Positions 22,532-53,253 of a DNA stretch of 64,000 bases are shown piece by piece; position 1 is the first letter of the stretch, and each line of letters begins with the position of its first letter. The stretch comes from Bacteroidales bacterium (GTDB lineage: Bacteria > Bacteroidota > Bacteroidia > Bacteroidales > UBA932). The translations under genes and the position numbers were made by a program. Under the pieces are notes generated by a model. It did no database searches, was not told the DNA's origin, and worked only from the letters and a program-made list of their open reading frames with translations. The stretch covers positions 146,968 to 210,967 of the forward strand of contig JAFRZX010000030.1 of the NCBI GenBank assembly GCA_017442315.1, given 5' to 3'.

Positions 22532-22646
22532 ATCATGTCTTTGGTTCAAAATTGTTTCATTGATTTGAATGTATTGGTATTTGTGTTCGTGATTCTTGTC
22601 ATTTTAACTTTATTTTATTAGATTTGTGCTGTTTTGAGTCCCATGA

Positions 22647-22679
22647 CTTGTGTTTTTAATGGGGGGGGGATTATATTTG
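22647..22679 (+). promoter_or_regulatory. Promoter of the CsgG-like/C25 locus, with G9 in its spacer
   Basis: CTTG at 22647-22650 and a perfect TATATTTG at 22672-22679 are 21 bases apart, 29 bases before the ATG at 22709. Nine consecutive G residues lie inside the spacer, so changes in their number would change promoter spacing. Confidence 0.65.
22661..22669. repeat. G9 homopolymer in promoter spacer
   Basis: Nine G residues run uninterrupted, ending two bases before the TATATTTG element. A tract of this length is expected to slip during replication. Confidence 0.85.
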
Positions 22680-22708: not shown

Positions 22709-23581
22709 ATGAAAAAGATCCTTTTTACTTTGATGCTTGCTTTTGCTTGCATGAGTGCCTATGCGCAGAAACCTGTAGTTCTTGTAGATTGGTTTTATGC
22801 GGCTGATGGTGTGGCAGAAGCCCATGAGGAAGCTCTTAGGGGTGCTGTCATCGCAAACATTGACCGTATAGGTCGTCTTCAGCTTGTTGATGTGGAGTCT
22901 CAGTACACTATGGACAGAGAGGCTCAGCGCCGTGCAACCGAAGCTGCTATGGCCGACCCGACTGCAAGGGCTGGTGAGATGAAGACAACAGGTGCTCAGT
23001 ACCTTCTCACAGGAAACATTTCCAAGATGGATGCTGTCTACAAGGTGCCTACTGATGGAACTTCTCCTTATTGGGCAGGTGCTATAGTGTACTCTCTTAC
23101 TCTCATCAATGCGGCTGACGGTACGACAGTAGGAACAAAGAGCTATACATATGAGGGTCTTACCGGAAATACCGGCTCTACAAAAGATGAGGCAATCGTG
23201 TCTACAATCAAGAAGACAAAGCAGAGCATGGACGATTTCGTTAACGAGTTCTTCCCTCTCAAGGGTGCCATCGTTGAGCTTGGCGAAGGAAAAGGTGCAA
23301 AGGTAAAGACCTGCTACATCAATCTGGGTACAGATCATGGTATCACTGCAAAGCAGAAGCTTGATGTGTTCCAGGTGAAGTCTATCGCCGGACGTGAGAC
23401 TGAGAATGCTATCGCAGTCCTCACAGTGGCCGAGGTTGTTGCTCCTGACCTTGCGCTCTGCAATGTTACATCCGGCGCAAAAGAAGTTTATGAAGCATTT
23501 CAGGCTGGTGCTGAGATGCGTGTGAAGACTAAGAAGGATTCGGCTGTAGGCTCTGCTCTCAAGGGATTCTTTGCAATGTAA
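22709..23581 (+). CDS. CsgG/FlgT-like exported protein
   Basis: This 290-residue protein has a signal peptide cleaved near AYAQ (residues 1-19). Residues about 20-190 follow the CsgG/TolB-like pattern: VVLVDWF strand, RGAVIANIDRIGRLQLVD, then QYLLTGNISKMD. The C-terminal part (about 190-275) has CYINLGTDHGI...LDVFQVKS, like the FlgT C-terminal domain. It is therefore probably periplasmic or outer-membrane. It is the first gene of the seven-gene locus and is followed by a hairpin (23608-23645), so its expression may exceed that of the genes after it. The exact role is unknown; the sequence is too divergent to call a secretion channel. Confidence 0.65.
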   Translation: MKKILFTLMLAFACMSAYAQKPVVLVDWFYAADGVAEAHEEALRGAVIANIDRIGRLQLVDVESQYTMDREAQRRATEAAMADPTARAGEMKTTGAQYLLTGNISKMDAVYKVPTDGTSPYWAGAIVYSLTLINAADGTTVGTKSYTYEGLTGNTGSTKDEAIVSTIKKTKQSMDDFVNEFFPLKGAIVELGEGKGAKVKTCYINLGTDHGITAKQKLDVFQVKSIAGRETENAIAVLTVAEVVAPDLALCNVTSGAKEVYEAFQAGAEMRVKTKKDSAVGSALKGFFAM

Positions 23582-23607
23582 TTTCAGACTATTTCTGAAG
23601 ATTTTCG

Positions 23608-23645
23608 TGTCAAGTTGCAGGAATGTAACTTGACATGCCATTTTT
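23608..23645 (+). terminator. Hairpin between the first two genes of the locus (possible attenuator)
   Basis: A 9-bp perfect stem (TGTCAAGTT / AACTTGACA) with a 10-base loop is followed by TGCCATTTTT. It is a weak intrinsic terminator or an RNA-processing site within the transcript. Confidence 0.5.
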
Positions 23646-23657
23646 AACGAACCAATT

Positions 23658-24929
23658 ATGAACAGACTTTCAAAAATCTTTTTTGCGGTTGCACTGACGT
23701 TGGTCTCTTATGAGGCAGCGGCTCAGAATTATCCGCAGGTAGTCTCCTATGAGTCAACGGAAGGAGTACAAGCTGTCTTCACGTCCGTAGGTATATCCGA
23801 TAAGGTCAAGGATGTGCAGGATAATGCCATCCGTTCCCTCTTTTATACGCTCTTCCATACAGGTGTGGAAGGGGTGAATGACGGACAGCCTTTGGTTTCT
23901 ACTCCTAATCGTGGATTTGAGGATTCCTTTTTCGCATCGAGAATGCCGCTGTTCGTGCGTTCTTGCGTCGAGGTGAAGAAGCCGGAGAAGAACTATGCCA
24001 AGATGTTTGAGGGGACATATCGGATCACCGTAGTGTATGGCAATCTGCTCAAGGATCTTGAGAGAAACAGGATGTATACAGCTCCGAAGCCGAAAATGGA
24101 ATATGCAAATGTCGAAAATGAGCCTTCAATGGTGCTGCCTACCATCATGGTTGTTCCATATAAGCGCGATGGCGAGACTTATGCTTCGGTTCTGTCAAAT
24201 GATTATGACAGACGAGTTGCAGTCAGCAAGGTGCAGGATGGCTTTGAATCCCGCGATATCACTACAGTCGATGTGGAGGCAAAACTGAATGCTGTCCTGA
24301 GGAATGCGCAGTTCGGTGCCAACGATGCTGATTCCAACGACAAGCAGCTCCTTATGAATTCAGGCGCGGATGTGTACGTTGTGGTGGACCTTCATAAGGA
24401 TGTGACATCTGCCGGTTCCAGGGTCTCGCTTATCATGAAGGCTTATGAAACCGCCAGCGGAAGCATTCTGGCGTCAAAAGATGCGATGACAAACAGATTC
24501 GCCACTGCATCTACAGATATGCTGTGTTCATATGCCATTCAGGATAATCTTTCTGCATTCCTGGATGATATATGCAAGAATTTCTCCAAGCAGGCGAATA
24601 ATGGAAAGAGAGTCACTCTTCAGTTTGCTATTGATGGCAATTCGGCAGCAACGATGAGCGACAGGGTAGGAGCCAGCGGATATCCTCTTTCCTCTCAGAT
24701 ACATCAGTGGGTACGTAAGAATTCCCACAACGGAAAGTATCATCTTCAGGGTATTGTGGATGAAAGCGTAATCTTCGATTATGTGATGATACCTCCGAAG
24801 GACAAGGACGGTTATGCTATGGATGCGGCTCAGTTCGGCTTTGCAATCGAGGCATGGATGCTTGATGAACTGGGAGTTGCCTGCTCAAGCCGTTTCGACG
24901 GATCTACCATATACATTACAATTTATTAA
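23658..24929 (+). CDS. DUF6175-like exported protein
   Basis: This 423-residue protein has a signal peptide ending near YEAAAQ (residue 23). Residues about 155-300 match my memory of DUF6175 proteins of Bacteroidota: PTIMVVPYKRDGE, then DRRVAVSKVQDGFESR, then NSGADVYVVVDL. This half reads like a CsgG-type TolB fold. Function unknown. It follows the hairpin at 23608 and precedes the LPP20-like gene by 11 bases, so it is co-transcribed with it. Confidence 0.65.
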   Translation: MNRLSKIFFAVALTLVSYEAAAQNYPQVVSYESTEGVQAVFTSVGISDKVKDVQDNAIRSLFYTLFHTGVEGVNDGQPLVSTPNRGFEDSFFASRMPLFVRSCVEVKKPEKNYAKMFEGTYRITVVYGNLLKDLERNRMYTAPKPKMEYANVENEPSMVLPTIMVVPYKRDGETYASVLSNDYDRRVAVSKVQDGFESRDITTVDVEAKLNAVLRNAQFGANDADSNDKQLLMNSGADVYVVVDLHKDVTSAGSRVSLIMKAYETASGSILASKDAMTNRFATASTDMLCSYAIQDNLSAFLDDICKNFSKQANNGKRVTLQFAIDGNSAATMSDRVGASGYPLSSQIHQWVRKNSHNGKYHLQGIVDESVIFDYVMIPPKDKDGYAMDAAQFGFAIEAWMLDELGVACSSRFDGSTIYITIY

Positions 24930-24940
24930 AAACTGAGGAT

Positions 24941-26281
24941 ATGAAGAAGATATTGATGACCATTTGTCTGATGGCTTGTGCTGCAGCAGCATATGCTCAG
25001 GCAGTTCCGGGATGGGTAAGCGTAAGGCCTGTCTCGGAAGACAAGTATGTCGGCATCGGTATGGCTCCTGTTTCCGATCCGGATTTCCAGAAGAAGGCTA
25101 CAGCCAATGCTATGCTTGAGATTGCAGCCCAGATAAGCATCAATGTGGAAAGTCAGTCTTTCATGCATACTGTTGATGTTGACGGCAAGTCAAAGGAATT
25201 GTTTGAGGAGAAGGTCAATGAAAGCGTAGCTGCAAACCTTGAAGGTCAGGTACTTAAGGGATCATATAGATCCAGTGACCGTTATTACGTGTACTATGAA
25301 CTTGACAAGAAGCAGTATGCAAAGCATCGCAAGGCTCAGAGGCAGCGCGGTGTTTCTTTGGGACTGGACTGGTATACCAAAGGAAAGGCAGCCGAAGATA
25401 TGCACAATTATGTGACTGCAATCCAGACTTATGCCAAGGGACTTGAGGCAATAGAGCCTTATCTGTATCTTGATCTGACCACTGAGTATGCCGGACGTGA
25501 CTTCGATGTGGCAAGCGAACTGTATCATGCTTATGTCAATGTGTTCTCCGGTTTTGAACTTGTCCAGAATGTTACAGAGGTTGGTGCTGAGGCGTTCAAG
25601 CCTTGTGGCGACCCTCTTGCTGTATGTCTGAGTAAGAACGGTACGGTTGTTCCGAATGTTTTGCTCAAAGCCCGTTTTGTTAACGGTGACGGAGAATTGA
25701 CGGCTCCTGCGAAGACGGATTATGAAGGAACTGCAGTGTTCTATATCACTAACGTGACATCCAAGCAGAGCATCCAGAATGTCGAGGTAAGCATAGATGA
25801 TTCATTCCGTTCTTCGCTGCCGGCTTCATACAGGCAGATCATCAGTGCGGATAACTGGCCTGTCGCCCGCTTTACCGTGGTCCTGATGAATCTGAACTAT
25901 ACTGCTTACATGATGATAGAAAGAAATGATCTGGAGGCATGTGAAAAGCAGGTCAGAAGCATTCTTGCCAACAATTATTTCGAATTTACAGAAGATACTG
26001 CGGCAAATCTCTTTGTCACACTTTCCACTGTTCTTGAGGTCGGCTCTGCTGTAAAAGGCGAACTCTATGATATGAATGAATGCTTCGCCTCAATGAATCT
26101 CAAGATATTTGATAATATAAAGCAGACACAGCTTCTGGATTATAATGTTTCTCCGGTCAGAGTCCTGGTTCCTGCAGACAAATCAGAACAGCAGACCTAT
26201 GCAATGTGTACCAGAGAACTTATGAAAAGGGTGAGGGTTGATCTTCCTCGTGAATTGAAAAAGTTGAACATAAATTTATAA
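24941..26281 (+). CDS. LPP20-like exported protein, 446 residues
   Basis: A signal peptide (1-19, ending AYAQ) is followed by an LPP20-type domain (about 22-130): PGWVSVRP, YVGIGMA, and ATANAMLEIAAQI. Residues about 140-210 look like a tetratricopeptide-type helical pair (YTKGKAAEDMHNYVTAIQTYAKGL). Residues about 220-300 are beta-rich and Ig-like (NVLLKARFVNGDG). The rest is mixed. It has no lipobox, so it is expected in the periplasm. The LPP20 domain is shared with the next gene, four bases downstream, suggesting the two products interact. Confidence 0.65.
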   Translation: MKKILMTICLMACAAAAYAQAVPGWVSVRPVSEDKYVGIGMAPVSDPDFQKKATANAMLEIAAQISINVESQSFMHTVDVDGKSKELFEEKVNESVAANLEGQVLKGSYRSSDRYYVYYELDKKQYAKHRKAQRQRGVSLGLDWYTKGKAAEDMHNYVTAIQTYAKGLEAIEPYLYLDLTTEYAGRDFDVASELYHAYVNVFSGFELVQNVTEVGAEAFKPCGDPLAVCLSKNGTVVPNVLLKARFVNGDGELTAPAKTDYEGTAVFYITNVTSKQSIQNVEVSIDDSFRSSLPASYRQIISADNWPVARFTVVLMNLNYTAYMMIERNDLEACEKQVRSILANNYFEFTEDTAANLFVTLSTVLEVGSAVKGELYDMNECFASMNLKIFDNIKQTQLLDYNVSPVRVLVPADKSEQQTYAMCTRELMKRVRVDLPRELKKLNINL

Positions 26282-26285
26282 TGCT

Positions 26286-26852
26286 ATGAAAATCGTAAAT
26301 CTGACAATCGTATTAATGGCGTCTTTGGCGCTTGTTTCATGCGGAGCAAAAAAGGCTGCTCAGGAGACTGTTGTGCAGCAGAAACCGGTTGTAACTTATG
26401 TGCAGCCAGGTTCGGATCTGCTCAATGCAGAAAATGTGCTCAGGTCTTGGGCTGTGGGCGTGTCTGATTCGGAAATGACAGCAAAGAAGAAGGCAGTAGC
26501 TTCTGCTTCATCTCAGCTTGCACAGATGCTTGAAAAGGCTGTAAGTACAACAATAGAAGAGTATTGTGTGTCTCTTGGAGAAAGCGAAGTGGCTAAGTCA
26601 AAGGAGTTCCTCAGCGAGAAGACAAAGATTGTTTCCGAGCAGGTACTCAGCGGAGCGCGTCCTATATTTGACCAGTGGGAGCCTAAGGATGAGAAGGGTA
26701 TGTATCGCAATTATGTGGTACTGGAGCTTACCGGCAGTGATTTCATCAAGAAACTCATAGAATCGATGAATGAGGCTCAGTCTGCCAATGTGAAGATTGA
26801 TGAGAATCTTTTGAACGAACTTTTCCTGAAGGCTATAAATTCGGAAAAATAA
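26286..26852 (+). CDS. LPP20-family lipoprotein
   Basis: This 188-residue protein has a lipobox (LVSC, Cys19), then an LPP20-type domain: LRSWAVGVSDSE, KKAVASASSQLAQML, and a C-terminal strand (YRNYVVLELTGSDFIKKL). It is probably anchored in a membrane and faces the periplasm. It lies four bases after the longer LPP20-like gene and 15 bases before the C25 peptidase gene, linking the exported and cytosolic halves of the locus. Confidence 0.7.
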   Translation: MKIVNLTIVLMASLALVSCGAKKAAQETVVQQKPVVTYVQPGSDLLNAENVLRSWAVGVSDSEMTAKKKAVASASSQLAQMLEKAVSTTIEEYCVSLGESEVAKSKEFLSEKTKIVSEQVLSGARPIFDQWEPKDEKGMYRNYVVLELTGSDFIKKLIESMNEAQSANVKIDENLLNELFLKAINSEK

Positions 26853-26867
26853 CAAGGGAGGTTCCCG

Positions 26868-28604
26868 GTGAAATTCTGTTACAGTTGCGGAAACAAGCTT
26901 TCCGGTACGGAAAAATTCTGCCCTAAGTGTGGTCAGCGGCTGGAGCATGCGGTACAACCGCAGGCTCCAGCCGTTTCGCCTGTTCCTGAGACTCCGGCTG
27001 TATCTCAGGTGGAGGAATCGGTGCAGAAAGGTAGAAACTGCTCAAGACATGGTGTCATATTTACGGACATAAAGGTACTGTCTGAACTGCTGGGAGCCAG
27101 TCGTGATGTCATATTGAAGCTTTTCGGGCAATATACCGATGCAATGGCAGATGCAGATATCGATTACAGGCTTGTAGATGTCTCCGATTATAAGTTTGTC
27201 TCCAAAGGAGCTGGTCGCAAAGGAGAAAGACCTTCTTTTTACGAAGACAGTCCTTGGTGGGATTATCAGCATGTCCTATATGATATAATATGCCATGAGA
27301 AGGAGAAGTCATTGCCGGAGTCCAATTATCTGTTCATTGTGGGAGGACATGAGGTCATTCCGGTACCTTCGATCAATCATTATGTAAAGGATGATCCACG
27401 TCTTCCTGACAAAGACATCGAGACCGATCTGCTGTATGCCTATCCATATGGTCCGCACACTCAGTATGCCTTGGAGTCTACGGAGCTTTATACGCAGGAG
27501 ATGTACTTCTTTACAGGCCGTCTTCCTATTCCAGCAGGAGCCGGTCTGGACTATCTGGTTAATTATCTTCAGAACGCATTGAATGTACGTCACGGGTTCC
27601 CGGTAAGAAAAATATATGCACAGTGCGACCCTCATTGGAAGGAACTTACTGCTTATCTTATGTCTCCATACAATAAGGTAGGAATGCTGCCGGACAGAAG
27701 TCACATTTCAGGACATTACAGTTATGGAAATGTCATGCTGGGACCGGATATCACTCATCAGTACATTGCGGCAATGATGGAAAAGGATACGGATATGATC
27801 TTCCTCAACCTGCATGGCAGCGATGATCCGGATGATCCTGATTATTCCGGTCAGTATCCGCCTCAGCAGGAAAGGTTTGCAACAATATTCCCTGTATCGG
27901 CGATGTCTATTCCTGAAGGATATAATGTCTTTGTGACGGAAGCTTGTTTCGGTGGCCGTTTCATAGGATATGATGTCATGCATTCGATGATTCAGGCAGG
28001 ACTTGCCCATAAGACTGTAATAGGAGTGGCATCATCAAGGGTGGCATTCGGAGGATCGCATCCTCCGGGAGGCAATGCAGATACACTTTGTGGAATGTTT
28101 GCAGCATATCTTCTAAGCGGTTATCCTGCAGGAGATGCCATGGTCATGGCTAGAAGCTCGTTCTTTGGAGAAGACGGAATGCTGTCTCCTCATAATGCAG
28201 CTACATTGGCTGAATTCAATCTTTTCGGTGATCCATGTCTGCGCGCGATAGGGGTATATGAGAAAGATTCAAAGATGAAGGCTCCGGTCAGCCGCAATGT
28301 CGCTCCGAAAGATTTTCCATGTGGTTATGAGGAACAGTCCATAAAGAGTGCTGCCAAGGAACGCTCTCTTCTGGATATGGTGCGTGGGGCAGTGGATGCC
28401 AATGTCAAGGCCATCAGTGACAGCATCGGGAAGGAACTTTATTCCAAGTACGGACTTCCTCCTCGTGAGCCTGAGACTATAAAGAAACTCAGATACAGGA
28501 ACGGAAAGGAACGTATGGTATTTACATACAACACAAAGAGTGCTTCTTGGGTTGTGACTGCAACTCCGGACGGAAAAATAGAATCAGTAATGTCATCAAA
28601 ATAA
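26868..28604 (+). CDS. Zinc-ribbon C25 (gingipain/caspase-fold) cysteine peptidase
   Basis: Translation starts at a GTG, supported by a strong Shine-Dalgarno AAGGGAGG seven bases before it, unusual in this phylum. The 578-residue protein begins with a zinc ribbon (Cys4, Cys7, Cys18, Cys21), then a Pro/Gln-rich linker (28-52). Residues about 60-465 form a C25-type domain: YLFIVGGHEVIPVP, FFTGRLPIPAG, the catalytic pair His316 (LNLHGSDD) and Cys360 (VTEACFGG), and the family signature FNLFGDPCLRA. Gingipains are secreted, but this protein has no signal peptide, so it should act in the cytosol. The C-terminal 110 residues are unassigned. Target unknown; the neighbouring ribbon proteins are candidate partners or substrates. 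Confidence 0.8.
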   Translation: MKFCYSCGNKLSGTEKFCPKCGQRLEHAVQPQAPAVSPVPETPAVSQVEESVQKGRNCSRHGVIFTDIKVLSELLGASRDVILKLFGQYTDAMADADIDYRLVDVSDYKFVSKGAGRKGERPSFYEDSPWWDYQHVLYDIICHEKEKSLPESNYLFIVGGHEVIPVPSINHYVKDDPRLPDKDIETDLLYAYPYGPHTQYALESTELYTQEMYFFTGRLPIPAGAGLDYLVNYLQNALNVRHGFPVRKIYAQCDPHWKELTAYLMSPYNKVGMLPDRSHISGHYSYGNVMLGPDITHQYIAAMMEKDTDMIFLNLHGSDDPDDPDYSGQYPPQQERFATIFPVSAMSIPEGYNVFVTEACFGGRFIGYDVMHSMIQAGLAHKTVIGVASSRVAFGGSHPPGGNADTLCGMFAAYLLSGYPAGDAMVMARSSFFGEDGMLSPHNAATLAEFNLFGDPCLRAIGVYEKDSKMKAPVSRNVAPKDFPCGYEEQSIKSAAKERSLLDMVRGAVDANVKAISDSIGKELYSKYGLPPREPETIKKLRYRNGKERMVFTYNTKSASWVVTATPDGKIESVMSSK

Positions 28605-28610
28605 CACACA

Positions 28611-30416
28611 ATGAATACTTGTCCAAATTGCAATGCACCGGTAGAACCTGATCACAGGTTCTGTATGGAGTGCGGGTATAAGATAGAGACTGCTCCTGAA
28701 CTTCCTCAGGAGCCTCAGCAGCTTCCTCAGGAACCGGAACCTGCAGTGGAAGAAATGGTCTCTGTGGAGAATCATATTATGTGGAACATGCAGCCTGGCC
28801 AGGTTGCCAGATTGATCAATGAGAAGGAATTCGCTCAGTACAGTGATGCTGCCGGACTGATTGTCAATGAAGGAGCCCGTGTCCTGATCAGAAAGAATGC
28901 AGAGGAACTTACTATGCTTTCAAGTGGAGTGTATCAATTCCCGAAGCGACCTGTTCCGGAAGGGTCTTCAAGAGGATTCATGACAGGTCTTCTCAGGACA
29001 GCTGCGGTAAAGGATGCTGAGAATGTCCCTCTTGAACTCTTCTCTATCCTTCTAGTAAGGGATGGGGATTTCCCAGTCATATTCGGTGGCGCTGACAGTA
29101 CGGGAGATGATTTCCGTCCGATGGTGATACCGGCAAAGAATCTTGAGGTTGAGGTAGGTGTGAGTGCTATGCTCAGGATAAGCAGCATGCAGGTGTTTGC
29201 CTCTAAGTATATGTCTGACCGTTCACGTCTGAATGTGCCAGAACTGGTGAAGATGCTTTCTCCGAAAGTTGAGAGGGTGCTTCGTGATGTGCTGGCAGAT
29301 GTGTTTGTATCGGAAGGAGGCATACCGGAAGTCGTCCAGGTGGAGATAAAGGACAGACTTGCTGCACTTTCTGCAGAACTCGGAGGTGTATCGATCTCTA
29401 ATGTAGAGGAAATCCGCGTAGGACATGAGGCATTGGAAAGGTTCAGGGCTCTGAATTCTGAACTGTACCTCACAGGGCGTGAACTTGAATATCTTGAGCG
29501 CACGAATGAATTCAGAAACCGTCTTGCTGCAGCTCAGAATGCACAGCAGGTGAACGAAGCTGCATCCGAACTGGAACTCTATAGAAGACTTCAGGAAATC
29601 AATAAGGATAAGGTTCTTGCAGATGATGAACTTGAGAGATTCTATACTGTGCTCTCCCGTGAAAAGAGGATACGTGAGGCTCAGAGCGAAGATCAGGTGG
29701 CGGCAGCTCTTGCAGATATCGAGAGGACAGGCTTGATCCGCAGTGAGGACCTCAATGCGTTGAAAGACGATATACGTGCAAATGAGCATCGAAGAGGTCA
29801 TGCATTCAGAATGATGCAGAAGAAAGATGAACTTGAACTTGAGTCACTTCAGAGAGAGTATGAGAAGAGGGTGCGGGATGAGGATTATGAGTTCGAGAAG
29901 CGTAAGAAAGATGATGAGTTTGACCGCTTCAAGGAATTGGAGAGAATGAGAAGCGAGAAAGAGGCGGCTGAACATGACAGGAATATGGAGGCTCTTCGTG
30001 AGATGCAGAGGGCAAAGCTTGAAAAACTTAAGCTGTCCAAGGAACTTACACCGGAACAGTTGCTTGCACTTGCTGCGAATGAAAATCTTTCACCGGAGGC
30101 TGCTGCCAAACTTGCCGAGTCTTTAGGCAAAGGCAGGGAAGTTGAGGCAGAAAGAGCACGCATGGAAGAAATCCAACGTCTGACTCAGGCCCGTATTGAA
30201 GACATGAAGGAAATGTCAAGGATGAGTCAGGAGACAGTCAGGGAGTTCATGCATGCATCTTCTCCACATCCTTATCCAGTCCAGCCTCAGGCTCCGGTCC
30301 AGCAGGCAGCTCCGGCTCAGCAGCCGGGAGCCGGACATAAGTTCTGTACGGCATGCGGATATAAGAATGCTCCGGAAGCACGTTTCTGTATGTCATGCGG
30401 CAATCCTATGAATTAA
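28611..30416 (+). CDS. SPFH-like coiled-coil protein with N- and C-terminal zinc ribbons
   Basis: The 601 residues start with a zinc ribbon (Cys4, Cys7, Cys18, Cys21) and end with another (Cys579, Cys582, Cys593, Cys596). Between them lies a P/E-rich linker (28-48), then an SPFH/band-7-like region (about 55-290) with GLIVNEGARVLIRKN, SSGVYQFP and a central EVEVGVSAMLRIS. A long highly charged helical stretch follows (about 290-520, rich in E, R, K and repeated 'DEL-LE'), then a P/Q-rich linker. The layout recalls YdjI-type SPFH-zinc-ribbon proteins, which associate with membrane-stress machinery. It has no signal peptide. It probably oligomerises on the inner face of the membrane. Its gene lies six bases after the peptidase gene. 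Confidence 0.7.
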   Translation: MNTCPNCNAPVEPDHRFCMECGYKIETAPELPQEPQQLPQEPEPAVEEMVSVENHIMWNMQPGQVARLINEKEFAQYSDAAGLIVNEGARVLIRKNAEELTMLSSGVYQFPKRPVPEGSSRGFMTGLLRTAAVKDAENVPLELFSILLVRDGDFPVIFGGADSTGDDFRPMVIPAKNLEVEVGVSAMLRISSMQVFASKYMSDRSRLNVPELVKMLSPKVERVLRDVLADVFVSEGGIPEVVQVEIKDRLAALSAELGGVSISNVEEIRVGHEALERFRALNSELYLTGRELEYLERTNEFRNRLAAAQNAQQVNEAASELELYRRLQEINKDKVLADDELERFYTVLSREKRIREAQSEDQVAAALADIERTGLIRSEDLNALKDDIRANEHRRGHAFRMMQKKDELELESLQREYEKRVRDEDYEFEKRKKDDEFDRFKELERMRSEKEAAEHDRNMEALREMQRAKLEKLKLSKELTPEQLLALAANENLSPEAAAKLAESLGKGREVEAERARMEEIQRLTQARIEDMKEMSRMSQETVREFMHASSPHPYPVQPQAPVQQAAPAQQPGAGHKFCTACGYKNAPEARFCMSCGNPMN

Positions 30417-30432
30417 TAACAATACGGTGAAT

Positions 30433-32394
30433 ATGATAAGATGTACATCATGCGGAAAGGATGTCAATCCTGAGGCATTCGGCGGAAAAATATTCTGCCC
30501 CCAGTGTGGAAAAGAGATAATTGAAGCTGCTCCTGCATCAAAGCCGGAACCTGTCAGGCAGGCATCAAAGCCAGCTTCTGGCGGTCAGCCTTTGACAGGT
30601 GATGAGGTTTCTATCAAGGATGGTATGGGAATCATAGAACAGGCCCGTACGAAAGTGGGTGCAGTGGAGTCATTCAGTGACAACAGTGTCACAAACAACA
30701 CTACAAATCATATTTCCAACATCACAAAGGTTGAAGATGACACCAAGAAGAGCGTTGTATGTGAGATATCCGGTAAGAAGGTTCTGGTCACATCAAGTGT
30801 TCAGTGCCCGGTGTGTGGAAAGACTGTTGCAGATCAGTATTATGATGAGGAGAAACTCCGTTGCATGGCTTGTGAGAAGAGGGCTTTGGCTGATTACGAA
30901 AGATTCTATAAGGAGTTGACCGAAGGAGCCAGGACCATCGATAAAGAGATGAGGAGTGTATTGGATGATAAGGCTAAGTCCTATAAGCTGACAGCTGCCC
31001 AGGTTAAAGAGATCGAACTCAAGCTCAAGAAAGCCGGTTCAGGCAAGACTGTTTTGAGCGACATCAAGCGTAAGGACTTCAATAGGACTGTCAATCAGTT
31101 GCTTGCCGGTAATATTGATGTCAAGACTTGTCTGGGTAAGGTTTCTGCGTATGCTAAGATCACGGACGATGATGAGGTCCAGTGCTGGTATCATCTTCTG
31201 TGGGCAGTCTCATCTCCGAAGGAATACCGTACTGCTCTCAATGAGGCGACTGTTGACGAGTACTGGCAGATATATTGGGCTTTTGCAGCTGCTGTGAAGG
31301 TGAATGAGATGGCAGAAGCTGTAAATGCTGTAGATGTGGCCAAGGAGAAGTATCCGGAGAAGATAAATGACGTTACGCTTTCTCAGGTCTTTCTTGAGCT
31401 GTGTCAGTGCCTGGTGACTAAAGATACTTCATATCTTTCTGATGCTCAGAATGATCTGTATACGTTGTATGAGACTGAAAGTCCATGTCTGGAAGTTCTG
31501 AAGAAGGTATGTTTCAATCCGGCCTTTATCGAGGGCATGTTCTTCAAGGGTGTATTGCCGAAACAGCAGGAACAGAAGCCTCAGGAACAGACTGCTCCAT
31601 CAAAGCCTGTCTCCCAGCCGGTAAAACCTGTTTCCCAGCCAGTCTCACAGCCTCAGAAGCCTCAGCAGAATACTGCAACGGTGAAGCCTGTCATGTCTCA
31701 GGCTCAGCCACAGAATTCGGCTTCCAAGGGAGTTGTCATCAATAATTCGGCAGGTGGTCCTCTCAATCCTGGAGAAGTGTCCTTCCAGACTGCTCAGAAA
31801 TCATCGAAGAAAGGTGGAACAGTCATTTGGGTTCTTGTCCTTCTTCTGGCATTGGCTGCAGGTGCTTATTTCTTCATGGGAGGAAAATCTGACGTTCCGG
31901 AAGTTGCGGAGCAGCAGAATGTCGAGGAACCTGTAGCACAGCCTGCTTCAGTTCCTGCAGTGTCTCAGGAGGAAGAACCGGCACAGGCTGTAGTTCCTGC
32001 AGTGGCTCAGGAGGAAGAACCGGCACAGGCTGTCGTTCCTGCTGCTCCTGCTACATTGGCGGAAAAGAAGGTCGCTCAGAAGGTTCAGGAGACTGCTGCT
32101 GCCAAAGCAGAGGCTGAAGCTGCTGCTAAGGAGGCTGCTGATAAGCCTGCTCCTGCTGCGGATGTATGTGCGGAAGCAAAGGCTGCTTATGATGCAGGTG
32201 ATTTTCGGACTGCCCATGATCTTTATAAGAAAGCCGGCAATGCCGGTAATCCGGAAGCATGCTATCAGCTGGGCCTGATGCTTTCCACTGGCAAGGGATC
32301 GATAGCTAAGAATGCTCTTCAGGCAAAGATGTGGATGAAGAAGGCCGCAGGCCTTGGTCATAAGGAGGCGGAAGCGGCTTTGGCTGCCATGTAG
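30433..32394 (+). CDS. Zinc-ribbon, single-TM, Sel1-repeat protein
   Basis: I start at the ATG at 30433 (MIRCTSCGK); an in-frame GTG lies at 30427. The 653-residue protein has a zinc ribbon at Cys4, Cys7, Cys22 and Cys25. A second cysteine-pair module follows at about 110-150 (CEISGKK, CPVCGKT, CMACEKR), then an alpha-helical region (about 150-370). Next come a Pro/Gln/Ser-rich linker, one transmembrane helix at about 463-482, a Pro/Ala/Glu-rich repeat stretch, and Sel1-like repeats at about 580-653 (AYDAGDFRTAHDLYKKAG). With ribbons cytosolic, the Sel1 part would lie in the periplasm. That topology would connect the cytosolic peptidase/SPFH pair to the exported proteins. It is the last gene of the locus. 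Confidence 0.75.
   Translation: MIRCTSCGKDVNPEAFGGKIFCPQCGKEIIEAAPASKPEPVRQASKPASGGQPLTGDEVSIKDGMGIIEQARTKVGAVESFSDNSVTNNTTNHISNITKVEDDTKKSVVCEISGKKVLVTSSVQCPVCGKTVADQYYDEEKLRCMACEKRALADYERFYKELTEGARTIDKEMRSVLDDKAKSYKLTAAQVKEIELKLKKAGSGKTVLSDIKRKDFNRTVNQLLAGNIDVKTCLGKVSAYAKITDDDEVQCWYHLLWAVSSPKEYRTALNEATVDEYWQIYWAFAAAVKVNEMAEAVNAVDVAKEKYPEKINDVTLSQVFLELCQCLVTKDTSYLSDAQNDLYTLYETESPCLEVLKKVCFNPAFIEGMFFKGVLPKQQEQKPQEQTAPSKPVSQPVKPVSQPVSQPQKPQQNTATVKPVMSQAQPQNSASKGVVINNSAGGPLNPGEVSFQTAQKSSKKGGTVIWVLVLLLALAAGAYFFMGGKSDVPEVAEQQNVEEPVAQPASVPAVSQEEEPAQAVVPAVAQEEEPAQAVVPAAPATLAEKKVAQKVQETAAAKAEAEAAAKEAADKPAPAADVCAEAKAAYDAGDFRTAHDLYKKAGNAGNPEACYQLGLMLSTGKGSIAKNALQAKMWMKKAAGLGHKEAEAALAAM
31951..32034. 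repeat. 42-bp direct repeat inside the Sel1 gene
   Basis: Two adjacent 42-base copies (differing at two positions) encode VPAVSQEEEPAQAV and VPAVAQEEEPAQAV after the transmembrane helix. Copy number could vary between strains. Confidence 0.8.
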
Positions 32395-32498: not shown

Positions 32499-33875
32499 CT
32501 ACTTCTTGTATTTCTCCATCTTTGAGGTGACTTTCTGTATATAGTCCTGCGTTTCCGCATGAGGCAGGGCCCTTTTGAGATGGCTGAACAACTGACTGTA
32601 GGTCATGGTGTTGATGGTCGGAATTGCCTTTGAGATATTGGTGGTTCCGTTTATGGCTCTGCTTACATTGCCGGCTCCGGTATTGTATGCAGCTATGGCG
32701 CACAGCATGCGGCATTGTGGGTCTGTCACTTTCGAGAATGTGGTTGACATGAGCAGCTTCAGGTATCCTGTTCCAAGCTCGATATTGTTATCCGGGTCAA
32801 ACAGGAAGTTTGCTGACGGTATCTTGTCTTCCTTGTGTACATACCGGTATGCATCTCTTCCTCCGGATTTCGGAACAAGCTGCATCAGTCCGTATGCCGG
32901 AACCCAAGATTGGGCAGCCGGGTTGAATGCAGACTCCTGTTCCATTATAGCATAGATCAGAGGCTCGTCAACTGTGAATTTCTTTGAGTGTCTGCTGATC
33001 ATTCCCTTGAACTGCTCGGCTCTTTTTGGTATATGGTCTTCTACAAGTTCCATGGTGATGGTGACCACATTCTTTTTACCTTCATTTGTCTGTACTGTCT
33101 GTACTGTCGGTTTTTCAGTAGCTACGATAACCTGTGCCAGTGATTTTGCATTGATTGCTCTGTCTGCCATCGTTCCTCCTGATGTCTTTTTAGCAGGAGC
33201 AGGGGCTGGTCTTGCCGGAGCCGGAGCTGGAGCAGTTCTGTTGCTTACGGAAGAGTGTCTTGACAGGTTCAGGCTTGAGTTTCTGCCCGGCTTGGGAGCA
33301 GTTCCTGAATTTCCTCCCATTGTTGGTCCAGGTGCTGTATGACCGCTTTCATATCTGCTCAGGTTCAGTTGACCGTCAAGAAGCGGCTTGTCTGAGAGAG
33401 AATGCTGTGGAAGGACTTTCGAGTCGAAGTCGCATGTCTTTCCTCTGCTGGTCAGAAGACCGTTTACGGCATTTTCCAGTTTTGCCCTTATGTCTGCTTC
33501 CGTGTCGGACGGGTCCGTAAGCACTTCGATGGCGACCTTGCCAGTCTCGAAATCCACCATGGTCCTGCTGGATTTGTCTGCTCCATATTCAACCCATTCC
33601 TTGCGGGTGCTTTCCACAACTTCGTTGTCTCCCCAAATGCCCATCACTTCTTTCTTGAATGCTTCATATTCTTCTCTGAGCTGTCGTTCTGTCTCCAGAT
33701 ATGCCTCAAGGGCTGCGTCGGCTTCAGCTTCAAAATCAGCAACAGCACTGTCCATATCTATCTGGGCTTCCTTGCGGATACGCTCCATATCTTCTTTTGT
33801 CGTCTGGCCTGAAACGATGAACGGAATAATTGCAGCAATGGCGGTGATAATATGTTTTTTCATATGTGTTCTCAT
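32499..33875 (-). CDS. MltC-like lytic transglycosylase
   Basis: This 458-residue protein has a signal peptide; ATGs at 33875 and 33863 both give one. Residues about 30-290 contain a charged helical start (many E/A/D), then a region like the N-terminal domain of MltC (KVAIEVLTDP, ADIRAKLENAV), then a Pro/Ala-rich linker. Residues about 295-450 are the lytic transglycosylase domain: catalytic Glu314 in MEQESAFNP, then YGLMQLVPKSGG and AYNTGAGNV. It cleaves peptidoglycan glycan strands, forming 1,6-anhydro ends. It has no lipobox, unlike E. coli MltC. It converges on the C25 locus and has its own promoter. Confidence 0.88.
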   Translation of the reverse strand: MRTHMKKHIITAIAAIIPFIVSGQTTKEDMERIRKEAQIDMDSAVADFEAEADAALEAYLETERQLREEYEAFKKEVMGIWGDNEVVESTRKEWVEYGADKSSRTMVDFETGKVAIEVLTDPSDTEADIRAKLENAVNGLLTSRGKTCDFDSKVLPQHSLSDKPLLDGQLNLSRYESGHTAPGPTMGGNSGTAPKPGRNSSLNLSRHSSVSNRTAPAPAPARPAPAPAKKTSGGTMADRAINAKSLAQVIVATEKPTVQTVQTNEGKKNVVTITMELVEDHIPKRAEQFKGMISRHSKKFTVDEPLIYAIMEQESAFNPAAQSWVPAYGLMQLVPKSGGRDAYRYVHKEDKIPSANFLFDPDNNIELGTGYLKLLMSTTFSKVTDPQCRMLCAIAAYNTGAGNVSRAINGTTNISKAIPTINTMTYSQLFSHLKRALPHAETQDYIQKVTSKMEKYKK

Positions 33876-33901: not shown

Positions 33902-33932
33902 CAAATTTAAGTAAAAGTGCTTATAAATCAAA
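33902..33932 (-). promoter_or_regulatory. Promoter of the MltC-like gene
   Basis: On the minus strand TTTG, 19 bases, TAAATTTG: full consensus in both elements. Its upstream end overlaps the last bases of the MATE gene. Confidence 0.75.
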
Positions 33933-38294: not shown

Positions 38295-39569
38295 CTATTC
38301 ATCTGCCTTTGCAGTATGCTGTGTCTTTCTTCTTATAGCGGCTGTCTCTTCCAGATCTGTAATACTCTGACCTACCTCAACAAGAAGTACAGGCTTTGTG
38401 CCGGTTGCAAAGAGGTTCTTCTTCCTGACGGCTGCATTGTTGTAGCCTATCTTCTGACTTCTTACTTCAGGAAGTTCGATTCCTTCATCTGCTGAAGCGG
38501 CTTGCTTGTCATATACAAAGTCAGCTTCTATCCATATGCTGCTGCCAGGATTGCCGCATGTGATCTCGCTGATCATACTCATCTTGAATCCGGTTGCTAT
38601 GACTGTTATGTTGACCTTGTCTCCGAAATCCGGGTCACCGTTCAGGACAATTCCACTCTTGAAGTTGTTTGCATTTCCGGTGTATTCATTGACCAGCCTG
38701 TTTATTTCTTCCAGCTGCTTCATCTGCAGACCTTGCTCATTGTCTCCAACGGTTATGTTGATCAGCACATTCTTGGCTGTCTTGAGGTCGAAGTCGTTGA
38801 GCAGAGGTGATTCGAGTGCATTCTTTACGGCATCTTCGAGTCTGTGTTCTCCAGTACCTATGCCACATCCCATAAGGGCCATGCCACTGTTCTTCATCAT
38901 TGTCTTGACATCCTTGAAGTCGACGTTTATATGTCCTCTGGTCTTGATGATGTCGGTTATGCCTCGGACAGCAGTCGCAAGCACCTCATCTGCTTTCGGG
39001 AAAGCATCCTGGATAAGCAGGTTGCCATAGAAGTCATACAGCTTTTCGTTGTTTATGATAAGAAGGCTGTCTACGTTCTTCTCAAGTTCGTTTATTCCGT
39101 CTATAGCTTTGGACATGGACTCATTCCCTTCACTTTTGAAAGGTATGGTCACGACTCCCACAGTAAGTATGCCTTTCTTCTTTGCCATTGAAGCTATCAC
39201 AGGAGCAGCTCCGGTTCCGGTGCCGCCTCCCATACCTGCTGTTATGAAAAGCATTTCCGTACCGTTGTCAAGCACCTTTTCGGAAATCTCATCCTGGGAG
39301 TTCAATGCGGCATTGCGCCCTTCTGTAGGATTGCATCCGGCTCCAAGGCCTTCTCCAAGCTGTATCTTTACGGGAACATCACAGCTGTTCAGGGCTTGTG
39401 CATCAGTATTGCATACTATGAAGGTGCACCCTTCGATATGTTGCCTGTACATATAATTGACTGCATTGCAGCCTCCTCCTCCTACACCGAGAACCTTTAT
39501 AATCGAATTTTCAGGAATCCAGTCTGCCGGAGTTATGTCCAATGTATTGCTGTCTGTCATGTCCATCAT
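38295..39569 (-). CDS. ftsZ: Cell division protein FtsZ
   Basis: FtsZ is the tubulin-like GTPase of the division ring. At 424 residues it has the GTP-binding GMGGGTGTGAAP and the catalytic T7 loop NVDFKDV. The C-terminal end after about residue 385 is ITDLEETAAIRRKTQ followed by a short Lys/Asp/Glu tail; the hydrophobic end seen in many FtsZ proteins (FtsA-binding) is not obvious. It overlaps the ftsA stop by four bases (ATGA), implying translational coupling. A second ATG at 39566 is in frame. Confidence 0.96.
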   Translation of the reverse strand: MMDMTDSNTLDITPADWIPENSIIKVLGVGGGGCNAVNYMYRQHIEGCTFIVCNTDAQALNSCDVPVKIQLGEGLGAGCNPTEGRNAALNSQDEISEKVLDNGTEMLFITAGMGGGTGTGAAPVIASMAKKKGILTVGVVTIPFKSEGNESMSKAIDGINELEKNVDSLLIINNEKLYDFYGNLLIQDAFPKADEVLATAVRGITDIIKTRGHINVDFKDVKTMMKNSGMALMGCGIGTGEHRLEDAVKNALESPLLNDFDLKTAKNVLINITVGDNEQGLQMKQLEEINRLVNEYTGNANNFKSGIVLNGDPDFGDKVNITVIATGFKMSMISEITCGNPGSSIWIEADFVYDKQAASADEGIELPEVRSQKIGYNNAAVRKKNLFATGTKPVLLVEVGQSITDLEETAAIRRKTQHTAKADE

Positions 39570-40981
39570 ATTTTTTCATTGCTTACGTTATCGTAGAGGG
39601 TTCCCCAGAACTTTGTGATCTTTTCACTGAATGTCAGGTTGTTTTCCTCCCTCTTCTTTCTCTTTACTTTTTCAAAGTCGGCCTTGCCCATTTCCTCTTC
39701 GGTAAACAGTGTTGTCCTCACTTCCTCCTGCAAAGGTACCTCCAGTGAGACCGGGACTGTTATCGAGTCTGAAGGAATCCGGATTCCCGGCTGGGTACAG
39801 TTGATCTCCGGTTCTTTTGATGCCATCATGATCAGACCCAGTGAAGTTGCGGCAGATGTTTCGTTGACCCCTTCGCATCCCTGGCACGAGAAAAGACGCC
39901 TAGGATATCCTGTCCTGACCCTGTATCCTGAAAGGTCATATATGAAATTGCCGAGATTAGCAATCTGTGCGCTGCCTCCGGTTATGACAAGTCCGCTGCG
40001 GAGCATGTCTGCAAATCCGCTTGTATGTATTTCATAAAGGATAGCCATCATTATCTCTTCCACGCGTGCAGTGATTATCTCTGACAGGTATTTGACAGGA
40101 AGCTGTTTGTCAGGCTCAGATCCGTTTCCTCTTATATGTATGGTCTTTTCGCTCAGGTTCTGAAGTTTTTCCGGCATGCATGCACCAAATGCAAGCTTTA
40201 TGTTCTCAGCAAGTCTTTCGGAAATCTGGCACTCTGTCTTTATGTCGTTTGTTATGTTCTTTCCTCCAAACGGAACAGATGCATAATGTCTCATTATGCT
40301 GCCATGATATATCGATACCGATGTGCACCCCGCACCGAAATCTATGAGGGCAACTCCATTCTCCATTTCTGCGTTGGTGAGGACGGATTTAGCTGTAGAG
40401 TCGGCAGTGAAATATTTTCTTATGGCACTGATTCCGGCTTTGTTCATGACAGTATCTATTTTCTTGAGGTCTGTCTTTTTGCCTATGAATATCTTGAAAT
40501 GCCCTTCCAGAGTATCGCTTGTCATGCCTATTATGTCATTCTCTATGATCTGGAAGTTCTCTCCATCGGAGAATGATTGTGCCACAGCTCCGTAGATCGC
40601 TTCTTTGGCTTCATCCTGCAGAGGATAAAGATTCTCTGCGAAATTCTTTAGCTCGGCAATGTTTTCTGCCGTGATATCCGTATCTTCACCCCGGTCCGCA
40701 ATCTTGCCTGTACTGCTTTCCTGACGGATAGGGTATTTCGGCATTCCTACTATGGCCTGGGTGATCTTTATGCCAAGCTCGTCTTCTGCAATTCTCAAAG
40801 CCTCTACCAGCTGGCTGTTTACCTGGGACGGATTATAGACACTGCTGTATCTTATTCCAGACGATGGTGTCTCTCTGTAATATATGATCTGGACATCTTC
40901 ACCGTTGACTTTGGCTACGGTGACAGCTATCTTAGAGGTGCCCAGATCGATAGCAACGATGTGTTTGTCTGTCATATTCAT
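39566..40981 (-). CDS. ftsA: Cell division protein FtsA
   Basis: I start at the ATG at 40981 (MNMTDKHIVAIDLGTSK), 471 residues; another ATG is at 40975. An upstream non-ATG start would overlap ftsQ. FtsA is actin-like and tethers FtsZ to the membrane. Phosphate-binding loops appear as IDLGTSK and LIDFGAGCTS, with the 1C-domain between. The long tail (about 400-471) is rich in charged residues before the ending, where a membrane-targeting helix is expected. Confidence 0.94.
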   Translation of the reverse strand: MNMTDKHIVAIDLGTSKIAVTVAKVNGEDVQIIYYRETPSSGIRYSSVYNPSQVNSQLVEALRIAEDELGIKITQAIVGMPKYPIRQESSTGKIADRGEDTDITAENIAELKNFAENLYPLQDEAKEAIYGAVAQSFSDGENFQIIENDIIGMTSDTLEGHFKIFIGKKTDLKKIDTVMNKAGISAIRKYFTADSTAKSVLTNAEMENGVALIDFGAGCTSVSIYHGSIMRHYASVPFGGKNITNDIKTECQISERLAENIKLAFGACMPEKLQNLSEKTIHIRGNGSEPDKQLPVKYLSEIITARVEEIMMAILYEIHTSGFADMLRSGLVITGGSAQIANLGNFIYDLSGYRVRTGYPRRLFSCQGCEGVNETSAATSLGLIMMASKEPEINCTQPGIRIPSDSITVPVSLEVPLQEEVRTTLFTEEEMGKADFEKVKRKKREENNLTFSEKITKFWGTLYDNVSNEKI

Positions 40982-40997
40982 GATGTAAGTAACTTTA

Positions 40998-41780
40998 TCA
41001 TTGTTGGCTGCAGACAATCTGCCCTTCAAACCTGAGGTCGACTGTCTTGTAATAATCTTTTCCCTTTTCCGGAATGATGGCTGAATAATATTTTTCCAGC
41101 TTGTCCAGTTTGTCCTGGATATCCGTAGGGTGTCCGAACAGTATTTTTTCTTTTCCTGCCCTTGGTACCAGAATCAGTTCATGGTTCTTCTGTACATATA
41201 TCTGTACGAATTTGTTTTTCCATGTGCGGCTGCCGTCGATATGGTTCACAAGATTGAGAATCGATTCAAACCATTCTTTATCTGAGTCGGATATGACGCC
41301 TTTGTGTCCGCTTGAAGCAGATAACGGGATATATCCGTCTATAACCTGCACATGTGCCGTATGATTCTTCTGAAGAGGGAAGATGTAGCCTTCGGCATCG
41401 GCATAGAAGCCTCCTTCCTTTTTCTGGAAGCGGACAGCCGGCTTTCTCTGGGTTACGGTCACATGCAGCATCCCGTCTCTTGTAACATAGACCTGGCTCT
41501 TCTGCACTGCGCTCTTGCTGTCTACGATATTTTCTATTGCAGTCAGGTCCAGACTGTCTATGTGGATGCCTTTATATGCACCATACTCCTTTTCTATATG
41601 TCTTCTTATATCGTCCCCTGACAGGAAGCTGTTGCTTGTACTGTCTGTTACCGTCACTTCAAGGCCTTTGCACATCAGGTCTGTGCGTATTTCTTTTCCT
41701 GCAAGGTATGCGAGTACCATGCAGGCCAGAAGGACTGTTACGGACAAGCCTGATATAATGAGTCTCAAGATGCGGTTCAT
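40998..41780 (-). CDS. ftsQ: Cell division protein FtsQ
   Basis: A 260-residue single-pass protein: TM helix at about 7-27, then a periplasmic POTRA-like region (about 40-120; LSGDDIRRHIEKEYG) and a beta domain with TVTQRKPAVRF and YADAEGYIFPL. It links cytosolic and periplasmic parts of the divisome. It is divergent, but placement between murC (six bases) and ftsA supports the call. Confidence 0.88.
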   Translation of the reverse strand: MNRILRLIISGLSVTVLLACMVLAYLAGKEIRTDLMCKGLEVTVTDSTSNSFLSGDDIRRHIEKEYGAYKGIHIDSLDLTAIENIVDSKSAVQKSQVYVTRDGMLHVTVTQRKPAVRFQKKEGGFYADAEGYIFPLQKNHTAHVQVIDGYIPLSASSGHKGVISDSDKEWFESILNLVNHIDGSRTWKNKFVQIYVQKNHELILVPRAGKEKILFGHPTDIQDKLDKLEKYYSAIIPEKGKDYYKTVDLRFEGQIVCSQQ

Positions 41781-41786
41781 TGTCTT

Positions 41787-44272: not shown

Positions 44273-44289
44273 GTTATGTTCTAGACTGT

Positions 44290-47018: not shown

Positions 47019-47033
47019 ATATATATTACGTTC

Positions 47034-48326: not shown

Positions 48327-48329
48327 TGC

Positions 48330-49805: not shown

Positions 49806-49816
49806 CTTCCTTTATT

Positions 49817-51970: not shown

Positions 51971-52329
51971 TCTACAAGTCTGTCTGCCGGTTTTTCCGGT
52001 GCCTTCACTTCCGATCCGCTTTCCTTAAGCAAACTTTCTATCGTACTTATGCGGGAGAGCCCGGCAATGTCACAAGTCTTCTTGGCATACGATATCTTAA
52101 GTTCCTTTATTCTTTCCTTATTCTGTTCAGCTTTGAGCATGGTCTGGTCGCTTTTATATGTGAGCCATATGCTTACCCATGCCAATGCGAATGTGTACAG
52201 GATGAAAGGGAACAGTTTATCCACTCTCATCCTCAGCAATATGTCTCCACGCCCAATGGACCTGAAAGTCTCAATGATGGCGCCGGATACAGCCTTCCAA
52301 TCGATATCCTTTAATCTGAATTCCATCAT
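51967..52329 (-). CDS. FtsL-like divisome protein
   Basis: A 120-residue protein with one transmembrane helix at about 38-58 (FPFILYTFALAWVSIWL) and a following helix predicted to form a coiled coil (KAEQNKERIKELKISYAKK). Size, topology and position between rsmH and the PBP gene (both overlaps of four bases) match FtsL, although sequence conservation is too low to name it without context. Confidence 0.75.
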   Translation of the reverse strand: MMEFRLKDIDWKAVSGAIIETFRSIGRGDILLRMRVDKLFPFILYTFALAWVSIWLTYKSDQTMLKAEQNKERIKELKISYAKKTCDIAGLSRISTIESLLKESGSEVKAPEKPADRLVD

Positions 52330-53237: not shown

Positions 53238-53253
53238 GTTCAGGCCTCCTGTA

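Follow-up and report, generated by a model that had tools for sequence, protein, structure and literature searches.

An eight- or nine-gene set of Bacteroidales pairing a C25-type peptidase and a likely SPFH protein with an exported FlgT/LPP20-type cassette: a candidate for envelope surveillance or repair

Why should genes for exported proteins lie end to end with genes for a cysteine peptidase and two further proteins that carry zinc ribbons? The question is raised by a stretch of 64,000 nucleotides (hereafter, the window) from a Bacteroidales bacterium of the UBA932 lineage (GenBank assembly GCA_017442315.1, contig JAFRZX010000030.1, positions 146,968 to 210,967). A first-pass annotation made from the letters of the window had described seven co-directional genes at positions 22,709 to 32,394 and proposed that their products sense envelope damage and control the peptidase, for damage response or phage defence. 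We followed up this locus by profile searches and by comparison with related loci. The gene set recurs in near-fixed order in several Bacteroidales families, together with a transglycosylase gene and, in most relatives, a ninth small gene, and it probably serves envelope surveillance or repair.

A recurrent set of eight or nine genes

The genes of the module are referred to by the letters A to I. A-D make up the exported (outer) cassette, E, F and G the inner half, to which I belongs where it occurs, and H is the transglycosylase. The window contains the following features.

22648..22679, + strand: promoter-like site TTG-N21-TATATTTG, ending 29 bases before the start codon of A (pattern match)
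22709..23581, + strand: A, exported two-domain protein of FlgT/LpoB type, 290 residues (Pfam, profile search, superposition)
23608..23635, + strand: perfect 9-base-pair inverted repeat between A and B (spacer sequence)
23658..24929, + strand: B, exported DUF6175 protein, 423 residues (Pfam)
24941..26281, + strand: C, exported LPP20-domain protein, 446 residues (Pfam)
26286..26852, + strand: D, small lipoprotein with a weak LPP20 match, 188 residues (Pfam, alignment)
26868..28604, + strand: E, cytosolic protein with a zinc ribbon and a C25 (caspase-fold) cysteine peptidase domain, 578 residues, His316/Cys360 (Pfam, alignment)
28611..30416, + strand: F, likely SPFH-type protein with zinc ribbons at both ends, 601 residues (Pfam)
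30427..32394, + strand: G, ribbon, second ribbon, one transmembrane helix and Sel1 domain, 655 residues (Pfam, hydrophobicity)
32499..33875, - strand: H, MltC-type lytic transglycosylase, 458 residues, convergent in the window (Pfam)

The seven open reading frames A-G (22709-32394, all on the + strand) are separated by spacers of 76, 11, 4, 15, 6 and 10 bases, in agreement with the co-directional run and the gaps of 4-16 bases after the hairpin that had been reported. In the hairpin, 23608-23616 pairs with 23627-23635, and a short T run follows. A second promoter-like site starts at 22596, the next match on the + strand comes only at 43525, and a match on the - strand at 33931 precedes H. The pattern, taken to represent a promoter consensus, occurs in the window five times on the + strand and four times on the - strand, against 2.2 expected per strand. 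The arrangement of the sites is compatible with a single A-G transcript, without proving it.

A first survey found E in 3 of 149 genomes of the order, its own genome included. In both relatives a transglycosylase gene homologous to window H stands directly before E, the gene orders being D-H-E-F-G-A-B-C in L005, with D recognised by profile, and H-E-F-G-A-B-C-D in L006 (the two contigs appear again as L053 and L039). A three-sequence E alignment was then scanned against genome contigs and yielded 51 loci, 50 from Bacteroidota and one from Treponema, which carries the inner part of the module. Families among the tree labels of these loci include Bacteroidaceae, Muribaculaceae, Odoribacteraceae, Paludibacteraceae, Prevotellaceae and Rikenellaceae, and cultured carriers include Butyricimonas synergistica DSM 23225, Muribaculum sp. 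An289, Mediterranea massiliensis and Bacteroides caecigallinarum ET21.

Across the 51 loci, many of which end at contig edges, E was present in 51, F in 49, G in 48, B in 42, I in 39, A, C and D in 37 each and H in 32. Thirty-four loci are well flanked: their contigs extend for more than 2 kb ahead of E and for more than 8.5 kb beyond it. Here E, F and G were found in 34 of 34, B in 32, D in 28, A and C in 27 each and H in 24, with all eight genes A-H present in 24. The possibility that the genes rarely co-occur elsewhere, raised together with the original proposal, thus fails. The exceptions are L024, L032, L054 and L055 (E, F, G and B), L043 (E, F, G, B and D), L033, L041 and L051 (all but H) and L049 and L057 (E, F and G alone). 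H recurs with the module and most relatives carry I, so that the unit is larger than the seven genes first described.

The commonest order, H-E-F-I-G-A-B-C-D, was seen in 21 of the 51 loci, and the median intergenic gap is 17 bases (328 gaps). In the clade of the window (L007-L011, E 63-65% identical) the contigs, to the extent that they cover the module, show the order A-B-C-D-E-F-G; H lies behind G in L007, where it is convergent, and in L011. Since a near-fixed order is kept in relatives that are mostly 30-50% identical in protein sequence, the recurrence goes beyond chance. The module is rare, yet spread over several Bacteroidales families: of 294 evenly sampled genomes of the order, 3 contain E, 72 B and 8 H-type enzymes, the three strongest H-type matches coming from the three E-positive genomes, and in a sample of the phylum E was found in 2 of 394 genomes.

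The peptidase and its inner partners

E matches Pfam Peptidase_C25 with 28.5 bits (cut-off 23) and carries a ribbon at its N terminus; against PDB profiles, gingipain R was a weak match (E-value 0.066). Residues N314, H316, G317, C360 and G362 are conserved in all 57 sequences (the window, the 51 loci and five distant relatives). H316 and C360 are presumably the catalytic dyad, an assignment based on gingipain motifs. E has no signal peptide, and its ribbon is of the cytosolic type. The CxxC..CxxC pattern lies within the first 80 residues in 50 of 52 E sequences and is also N-terminal in 50 of 50 F and 50 of 55 G sequences, bearing out the earlier observation of a ribbon at the start of all three proteins.

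Pfam ribbons were found at both ends of window F. At an E-value of up to 0.01, Band_7 was matched by 2 of 33 members of the F family. The F protein of Treponema was the sole match among ten members scanned at a loose limit (24.7 bits, Band_7 cut-off 23.6, residues 150-383), and it scores 536 bits with the F profile, which was iterated on these same loci. We regard F as likely, not certainly, an SPFH protein. G matches Pfam ribbons and Sel1 (32.8 bits, cut-off 30.7) and contains a single strongly hydrophobic segment that starts at residue 466 (mean 2.5 over 19 residues), as expected from the single transmembrane helix ascribed to it at the outset. In a Prevotellaceae metagenome-assembled genome (L049:6418-13586), three G-like ribbon proteins, one of them of 1673 residues, follow E and F in a row.

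Gene I is a short open reading frame (at least 74 residues) between F and G in 39 of the 51 loci. In an alignment of 28 sequences G6, K18, S19, G21 and G61 are invariant (numbering of the first row), a KS motif followed by E, Q or D occurs in 39 of 39 sequences, and DUF5818 was weakly matched in 5 of 28. The E-I distance correlation over 39 loci is 0.70. Five distant C25 relatives were also analysed, four from Rhizobium plasmids (L117, L118, L125 and L126, four of five plasmid matches) and one from the phylum sample (genome G551, L124). These peptidases have no N-terminal ribbon, and no match to F or G was found in the stretches examined. In all five a homologue of I (25.6-36.5 bits) follows the peptidase gene closely, its start ranging from 4 bases ahead of that gene's end to 11 bases beyond it. 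The C25-I pair thus also occurs outside the module, so that I is probably a partner dedicated to the peptidase; it may be an inhibitor, a gate or a substrate. On two of the Rhizobium plasmids (L117:2359-9549 and L126:4224-10429) the pair lies near caspase-family, chitosanase, L,D-transpeptidase and DUF3616 genes, and transposases adjoin it in L126 and L125.

A peptidase with a partner of its own could also be a weapon. In a conflict or phage-defence system, E would be an effector held by I and by a SPFH/ribbon sensor, and would kill or arrest the cell when the envelope is breached. The rare and patchy distribution (3 of 294 genomes; 2 of 394 in the phylum sample) would suit such a role, as would the Rhizobium C25-I pairs near a caspase-family gene, e.g. 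in L117 and L126; caspase-superfamily peptidases are common in described conflict systems (PMC7159879). The searches for defence genes point the other way. A PADLOC scan of the module proteins, which covered A-G, left six proteins without a match and gave weak LmuB/PbeC matches for G (E-values 0.0007-0.02). A flank set of 122 proteins was assembled around the 51 loci (up to two per side, 150-1100 residues, non-overlapping; a few are diverged exported proteins of variant loci), and at an E-value of up to 1e-10 no PADLOC family matched more than one of them. Thirty families matched single flank proteins, PDC-S27, PDC-S01, WYL, E1-E2, ZorB and ShosT being among the matches listed. The best 25 of 167 Pfam families in the flanks, none with more than 3 members, belong mostly to metabolism, transport and housekeeping. 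E had no match in 50,697 phage records, and four exported proteins plus a transglycosylase would, from general knowledge, be unusual for such systems. Phage defence, one of the two purposes first suggested, is not supported by these results and was set aside, and we consider a conflict role improbable.

A mobile element was rejected as well: the guanine-cytosine content of the module (0.472) is near that of its flanks (0.468 and 0.461), F had no plasmid match, and E had five plasmid matches, all distant and from Rhizobium. Among the neighbour clusters listed that occur in at least three loci, those beyond A-I were a MATE transporter, diverged cassette proteins of the L024 group and ordinary genes.

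The exported cassette and the transglycosylase

The domain labels of the first-pass annotation held for B (DUF6175), C (LPP20), E (C25) and G (Sel1), which all score over the Pfam cut-offs, and failed for A, which had been labelled CsgG. Window A matches LpoB, FlgT_C and FlgT_M, all below cut-off, with no CsgG match at an E-value of up to 1; the genome has a single CsgG match, which lies on a different contig. Among 36 members of the A family, at an E-value of up to 0.01, LpoB was matched in 22 and CsgG in 4. A aligns with the middle and C-terminal domains of FlgT and shares the fold of both. The alignment starts at FlgT residue 98 or 121, which is where mature A begins, and no counterpart of the FlgT N-terminal domain was found in A (290 residues in all). 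The fold is common to FlgT, CsgG and PelC, and only the FlgT rows align over at least 200 residues. A is FlgT-like rather than CsgG-like; the CsgG pore label was dropped on profile evidence, though the fold is shared.

B matches DUF6175 with 200.8 bits (cut-off 23), and its search against PDB gave nothing better than an E-value of 1.2. C matches LPP20 with 39.8 bits (cut-off 25.9). D reaches 17.2 bits with the same family, below the cut-off; LPP20 is matched at an E-value of up to 0.01 in 5 of 29 D members, and against PDB it appears only at 0.82, worse than chance matches. The lipoprotein Cys19 of D is invariant in 29 of 29 aligned sequences. H carries MltC_N and SLT domains, both over cut-off, and matches solved MltC chains at E-values of 1.4e-61 and 1.7e-58. 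Its E312 and E314 are invariant in 23 of 23 aligned sequences, and the region between the two domains is longer than in MltC and variable. H directly precedes E in most relatives.

The cassette also occurs in other forms. In variant loci L024, L032, L043, L054 and L055, the genes after E-F-I-G encode a diverged DUF6175 protein and other exported proteins; A and C were not recognised there, and there is no clear H. When ten exported cassette proteins, nine of them diverged, were searched against Pfam, LPP20 was over cut-off only for C of L103, so that the LPP20-like label of the other diverged proteins is our own reading. In many genomes of the order the DUF6175 protein is split into two adjacent genes, covering about 140 N-terminal and about 270 C-terminal profile positions (e.g. 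L115:9098-10601).

The composition of the cassette would allow an export or assembly machine, in which A-D would serve as an outer-membrane channel or as the base of a surface structure, with H clearing a path through the wall and E processing either the cargo or the machine itself. The fold of A, shared with CsgG and PelC in addition to FlgT, and the MltC-type enzyme, which suits a wall-crossing apparatus, agree with this proposal. However, no conserved substrate-like gene appears among the neighbour clusters listed, and E has no signal peptide and bears a ribbon of cytosolic type. We give this explanation little credence.

Another use for an LpoB-like A and an MltC-like H would be remodelling of the cell wall or division site, the cassette activating or positioning peptidoglycan enzymes while E-F-G regulate them from inside. 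LpoB matches in 22 of 36 A-family members and the MltC type of H speak for it, as does the location of the module 6 kb from ftsZ and mur genes; a standalone A-D set in each of L103 and L104 is likewise near ftsA, ftsZ and murC. When the division genes of the window were compared with 68 loci, though, only L103 and L104 matched ftsA, ftsZ and murC. The LpoB match of window A is partial (53 residues) and below cut-off, and H is absent from 10 of 34 well-flanked loci. A primary role in wall remodelling is in our judgement quite unlikely, and a link to the division cluster, seen beyond the window in only 2 of 68 loci, was discarded. The cluster itself occupies window positions 38295-53399 on the - strand, about 6 kb from the module, and by our reading of the translations comprises ftsZ, ftsA, murC, murG, ftsW, murD, mraY, murE, ftsI and mraW; gltX, truB and a MATE transporter gene, named in the same way, lie between.

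The joined halves and their known counterparts

Our best explanation, tentatively held, is that the locus encodes a trans-envelope complex for membrane quality control or repair, in which an SPFH-organised protease is coupled to the FlgT/LPP20-type cassette. F would assemble into a ring or dome of SPFH type at the cytosolic side of the inner membrane, and the zinc ribbons of E, F and G would hold the three proteins together. The role of F as organiser of E at the inner membrane is proposed by analogy with SPFH-protease pairs and with YdjI-YdjG/H (see below). E would be an active cysteine peptidase kept at this assembly, where it is plausibly controlled, and I, in the majority of relatives that have it, probably restrains or gates it. 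G would cross the membrane, its Sel1 domain being taken as periplasmic, and plausibly acts as a ribbon-transmembrane bridge. On the outside, A, the LPP20 proteins C and D, and B may come together as a ring or disk close to the outer membrane, and H would open the peptidoglycan and so allow the inner and outer halves to make contact. E would be released or fed once the outer half or G senses envelope damage. Gene content and order, joint inheritance, the conservation of the catalytic residues and most of the domain identities are shown by the data, while physical assembly, gating and purpose are inferred. The interpretation first offered is partly supported in this form; the transglycosylase H, gene I and the occurrence of the exported half without the inner half go beyond it.

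A more specific version, which we consider somewhat unlikely, makes the locus a trans-envelope proteolytic machine of a new class that turns outer injury into cytosolic cysteine proteolysis. Here an SPFH dome, the caspase-fold peptidase and I would be connected, through the ribbon-transmembrane-Sel1 protein and a wall opened by the MltC-type enzyme, to a FlgT/FlgP-like damage-sensor ring in non-flagellated hosts, and I, with its invariant Lys-Ser, would be an inhibitor or pseudosubstrate.

Several observations on the individual proteins and on the relation of the two halves weigh against the trans-envelope complex. Window F has no Band_7 or other SPFH match of its own in Pfam, and nine of the ten F members scanned at the loose limit had none. 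With hhalign, F matched neither YqiK nor QmcA of E. coli, nor the non-SPFH control HflX, and a search of F against PDB returned ribbons only, apart from one short match at an E-value of 0.27. A hydrophobic stretch is present in 29 of 50 F proteins, so that F may bind the membrane alone, and is absent from window F. The profile matches of A to FlgT are weak (E-values 0.006-0.047), and the superposition gave a root-mean-square deviation of 11.7 Å over two domains. Leaving aside L009, L026 and L046, which end before or at the position of I, this gene was not found in the window, the remaining loci of L007-L011, L035, L039, L048, L049 and L056, nor was there any match to it at an E-value of up to 1 in the window's own genome, which is 88.6% complete.

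As to the two halves, A-B-C-D is complete without E, F, G and H in two loci of one genus (L103:8277-12490 and L104:7072-11245), and the inner part stands without a recognised outer cassette in L049 and L057. Distance correlations were computed from 28 complete eight-gene sets, 27 of them from the loci and one from the window. With E they amount to 0.87 for C, 0.85 for F, 0.82 for H, 0.78 for G, 0.66 for D, 0.60 for A and 0.59 for B, and none of 999 permutations reached the observed value for any of the six pairs permuted (E with A, B, C, D, F and H). A and B thus correlate less with E than with each other (0.84). Lacking a species-tree control, the correlations speak for joint inheritance of the genes and not for interaction of their products.

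These data bear directly on the rival explanation that an inner SPFH-C25-ribbon unit and an exported FlgT/LPP20/DUF6175 unit are mere neighbours, sharing a transcript or a regulatory need without contact. To the loci with one half alone, and to the somewhat separate evolution of A and B, it can add the hairpin between A and B. Fourteen contexts without an adjacent E were chosen, not at random: nine around B matches and all five E-negative H matches. Of the 69 E-negative genomes with B, 8 are represented by B contexts; the remaining B context is a second B copy in the E-positive genome G111. A accompanies B in six of the nine, and none of E, F and G was found in any of the 14 stretches; elsewhere the cassette takes a diverged form. 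On the other side stand the commonest order, seen in 21 of 51 loci, with its short gaps, and the presence of B beside E-F-G in 32 of 34. E-F-I-G still adjoins a diverged DUF6175 cassette in L024, L032, L043, L054 and L055, in support of the trans-envelope complex. The outer cassette is widespread without the inner half; the inner half has B beside it almost always. Two independent units are, on balance, unlikely.

If the trans-envelope complex is real, some Bacteroidales (neither PspA nor FlgI was found in 8 carrier genomes searched) police their envelope with an SPFH scaffold and a caspase-fold protease, and proteins of flagellar-disk type are used outside flagella. The module gives a first context for DUF6175 and for the small gene that follows C25 peptidases across phyla. 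Its parts are known families and, as far as we searched, their combination is undescribed: in the open-access literature searched, outside which most subscription papers lie, we found no account of a named system with this gene set, as the first-pass annotation had held, nor a paper on DUF6175 or an account of an SPFH scaffold paired with a caspase-fold protease.

Single parts of the module have known counterparts. E resembles the gingipains (C25) in its peptidase domain with an invariant His/Cys dyad, but is very distant from them, has no signal peptide and carries an N-terminal ribbon. H has the MltC_N and SLT domains of MltC, but in most relatives is encoded inside the module. The flagellar rings and disks of Vibrio and Campylobacter offer a likeness to the cassette: A resembles FlgT over the middle and C-terminal domains, and C has the LPP20 domain, whose fold occurs in the disk-forming FlgP and in FlgT (PMC12222027). 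In contrast to these structures, the LPP20 domains of the module are on separate proteins, and A aligns only to the later part of FlgT. FlgI was found in none of the 8 carrier genomes searched (3 of 14 control genomes).

For the inner half, the PspA-YdjGHI system of B. subtilis offers a comparison, since it combines an SPFH-type protein with a zinc-ribbon membrane protein. There YdjI depends on the membrane proteins YdjG/H, and recruitment of PspA to the membrane requires YdjI; a YdjG/H knock-out mislocalises wall synthesis (all PMC8581546), and YdjG bears a zinc ribbon (PMC9239133). The link to membrane stress and wall synthesis is that of PspA-YdjGHI, and the likeness of F and G to YdjI and YdjG is one of domain make-up only. 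The module differs in adding the C25 peptidase, its partner I, the transglycosylase and the exported cassette. PspA (PF04012) was rejected as a partner, being absent from 8 of 8 carrier genomes searched (present in 9 of 14 control genomes, B. subtilis included).

A further comparison is with SPFH proteins encoded with a protease. HflK/C pair with FtsH (PMC13220708), and SPFH1 and SPFH5 pair with NfeD proteins, some of which have a ClpP domain (PMC2636767). No AAA+ protease is encoded among the module genes; where the known pairs have an AAA+ metalloprotease or a ClpP-type serine protease, the module has a caspase-fold cysteine peptidase, together with an attached exported cassette and ribbons that may join the parts. 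We read the combination as a relative of the SPFH-protease pairs rather than as a wholly separate kind of system.

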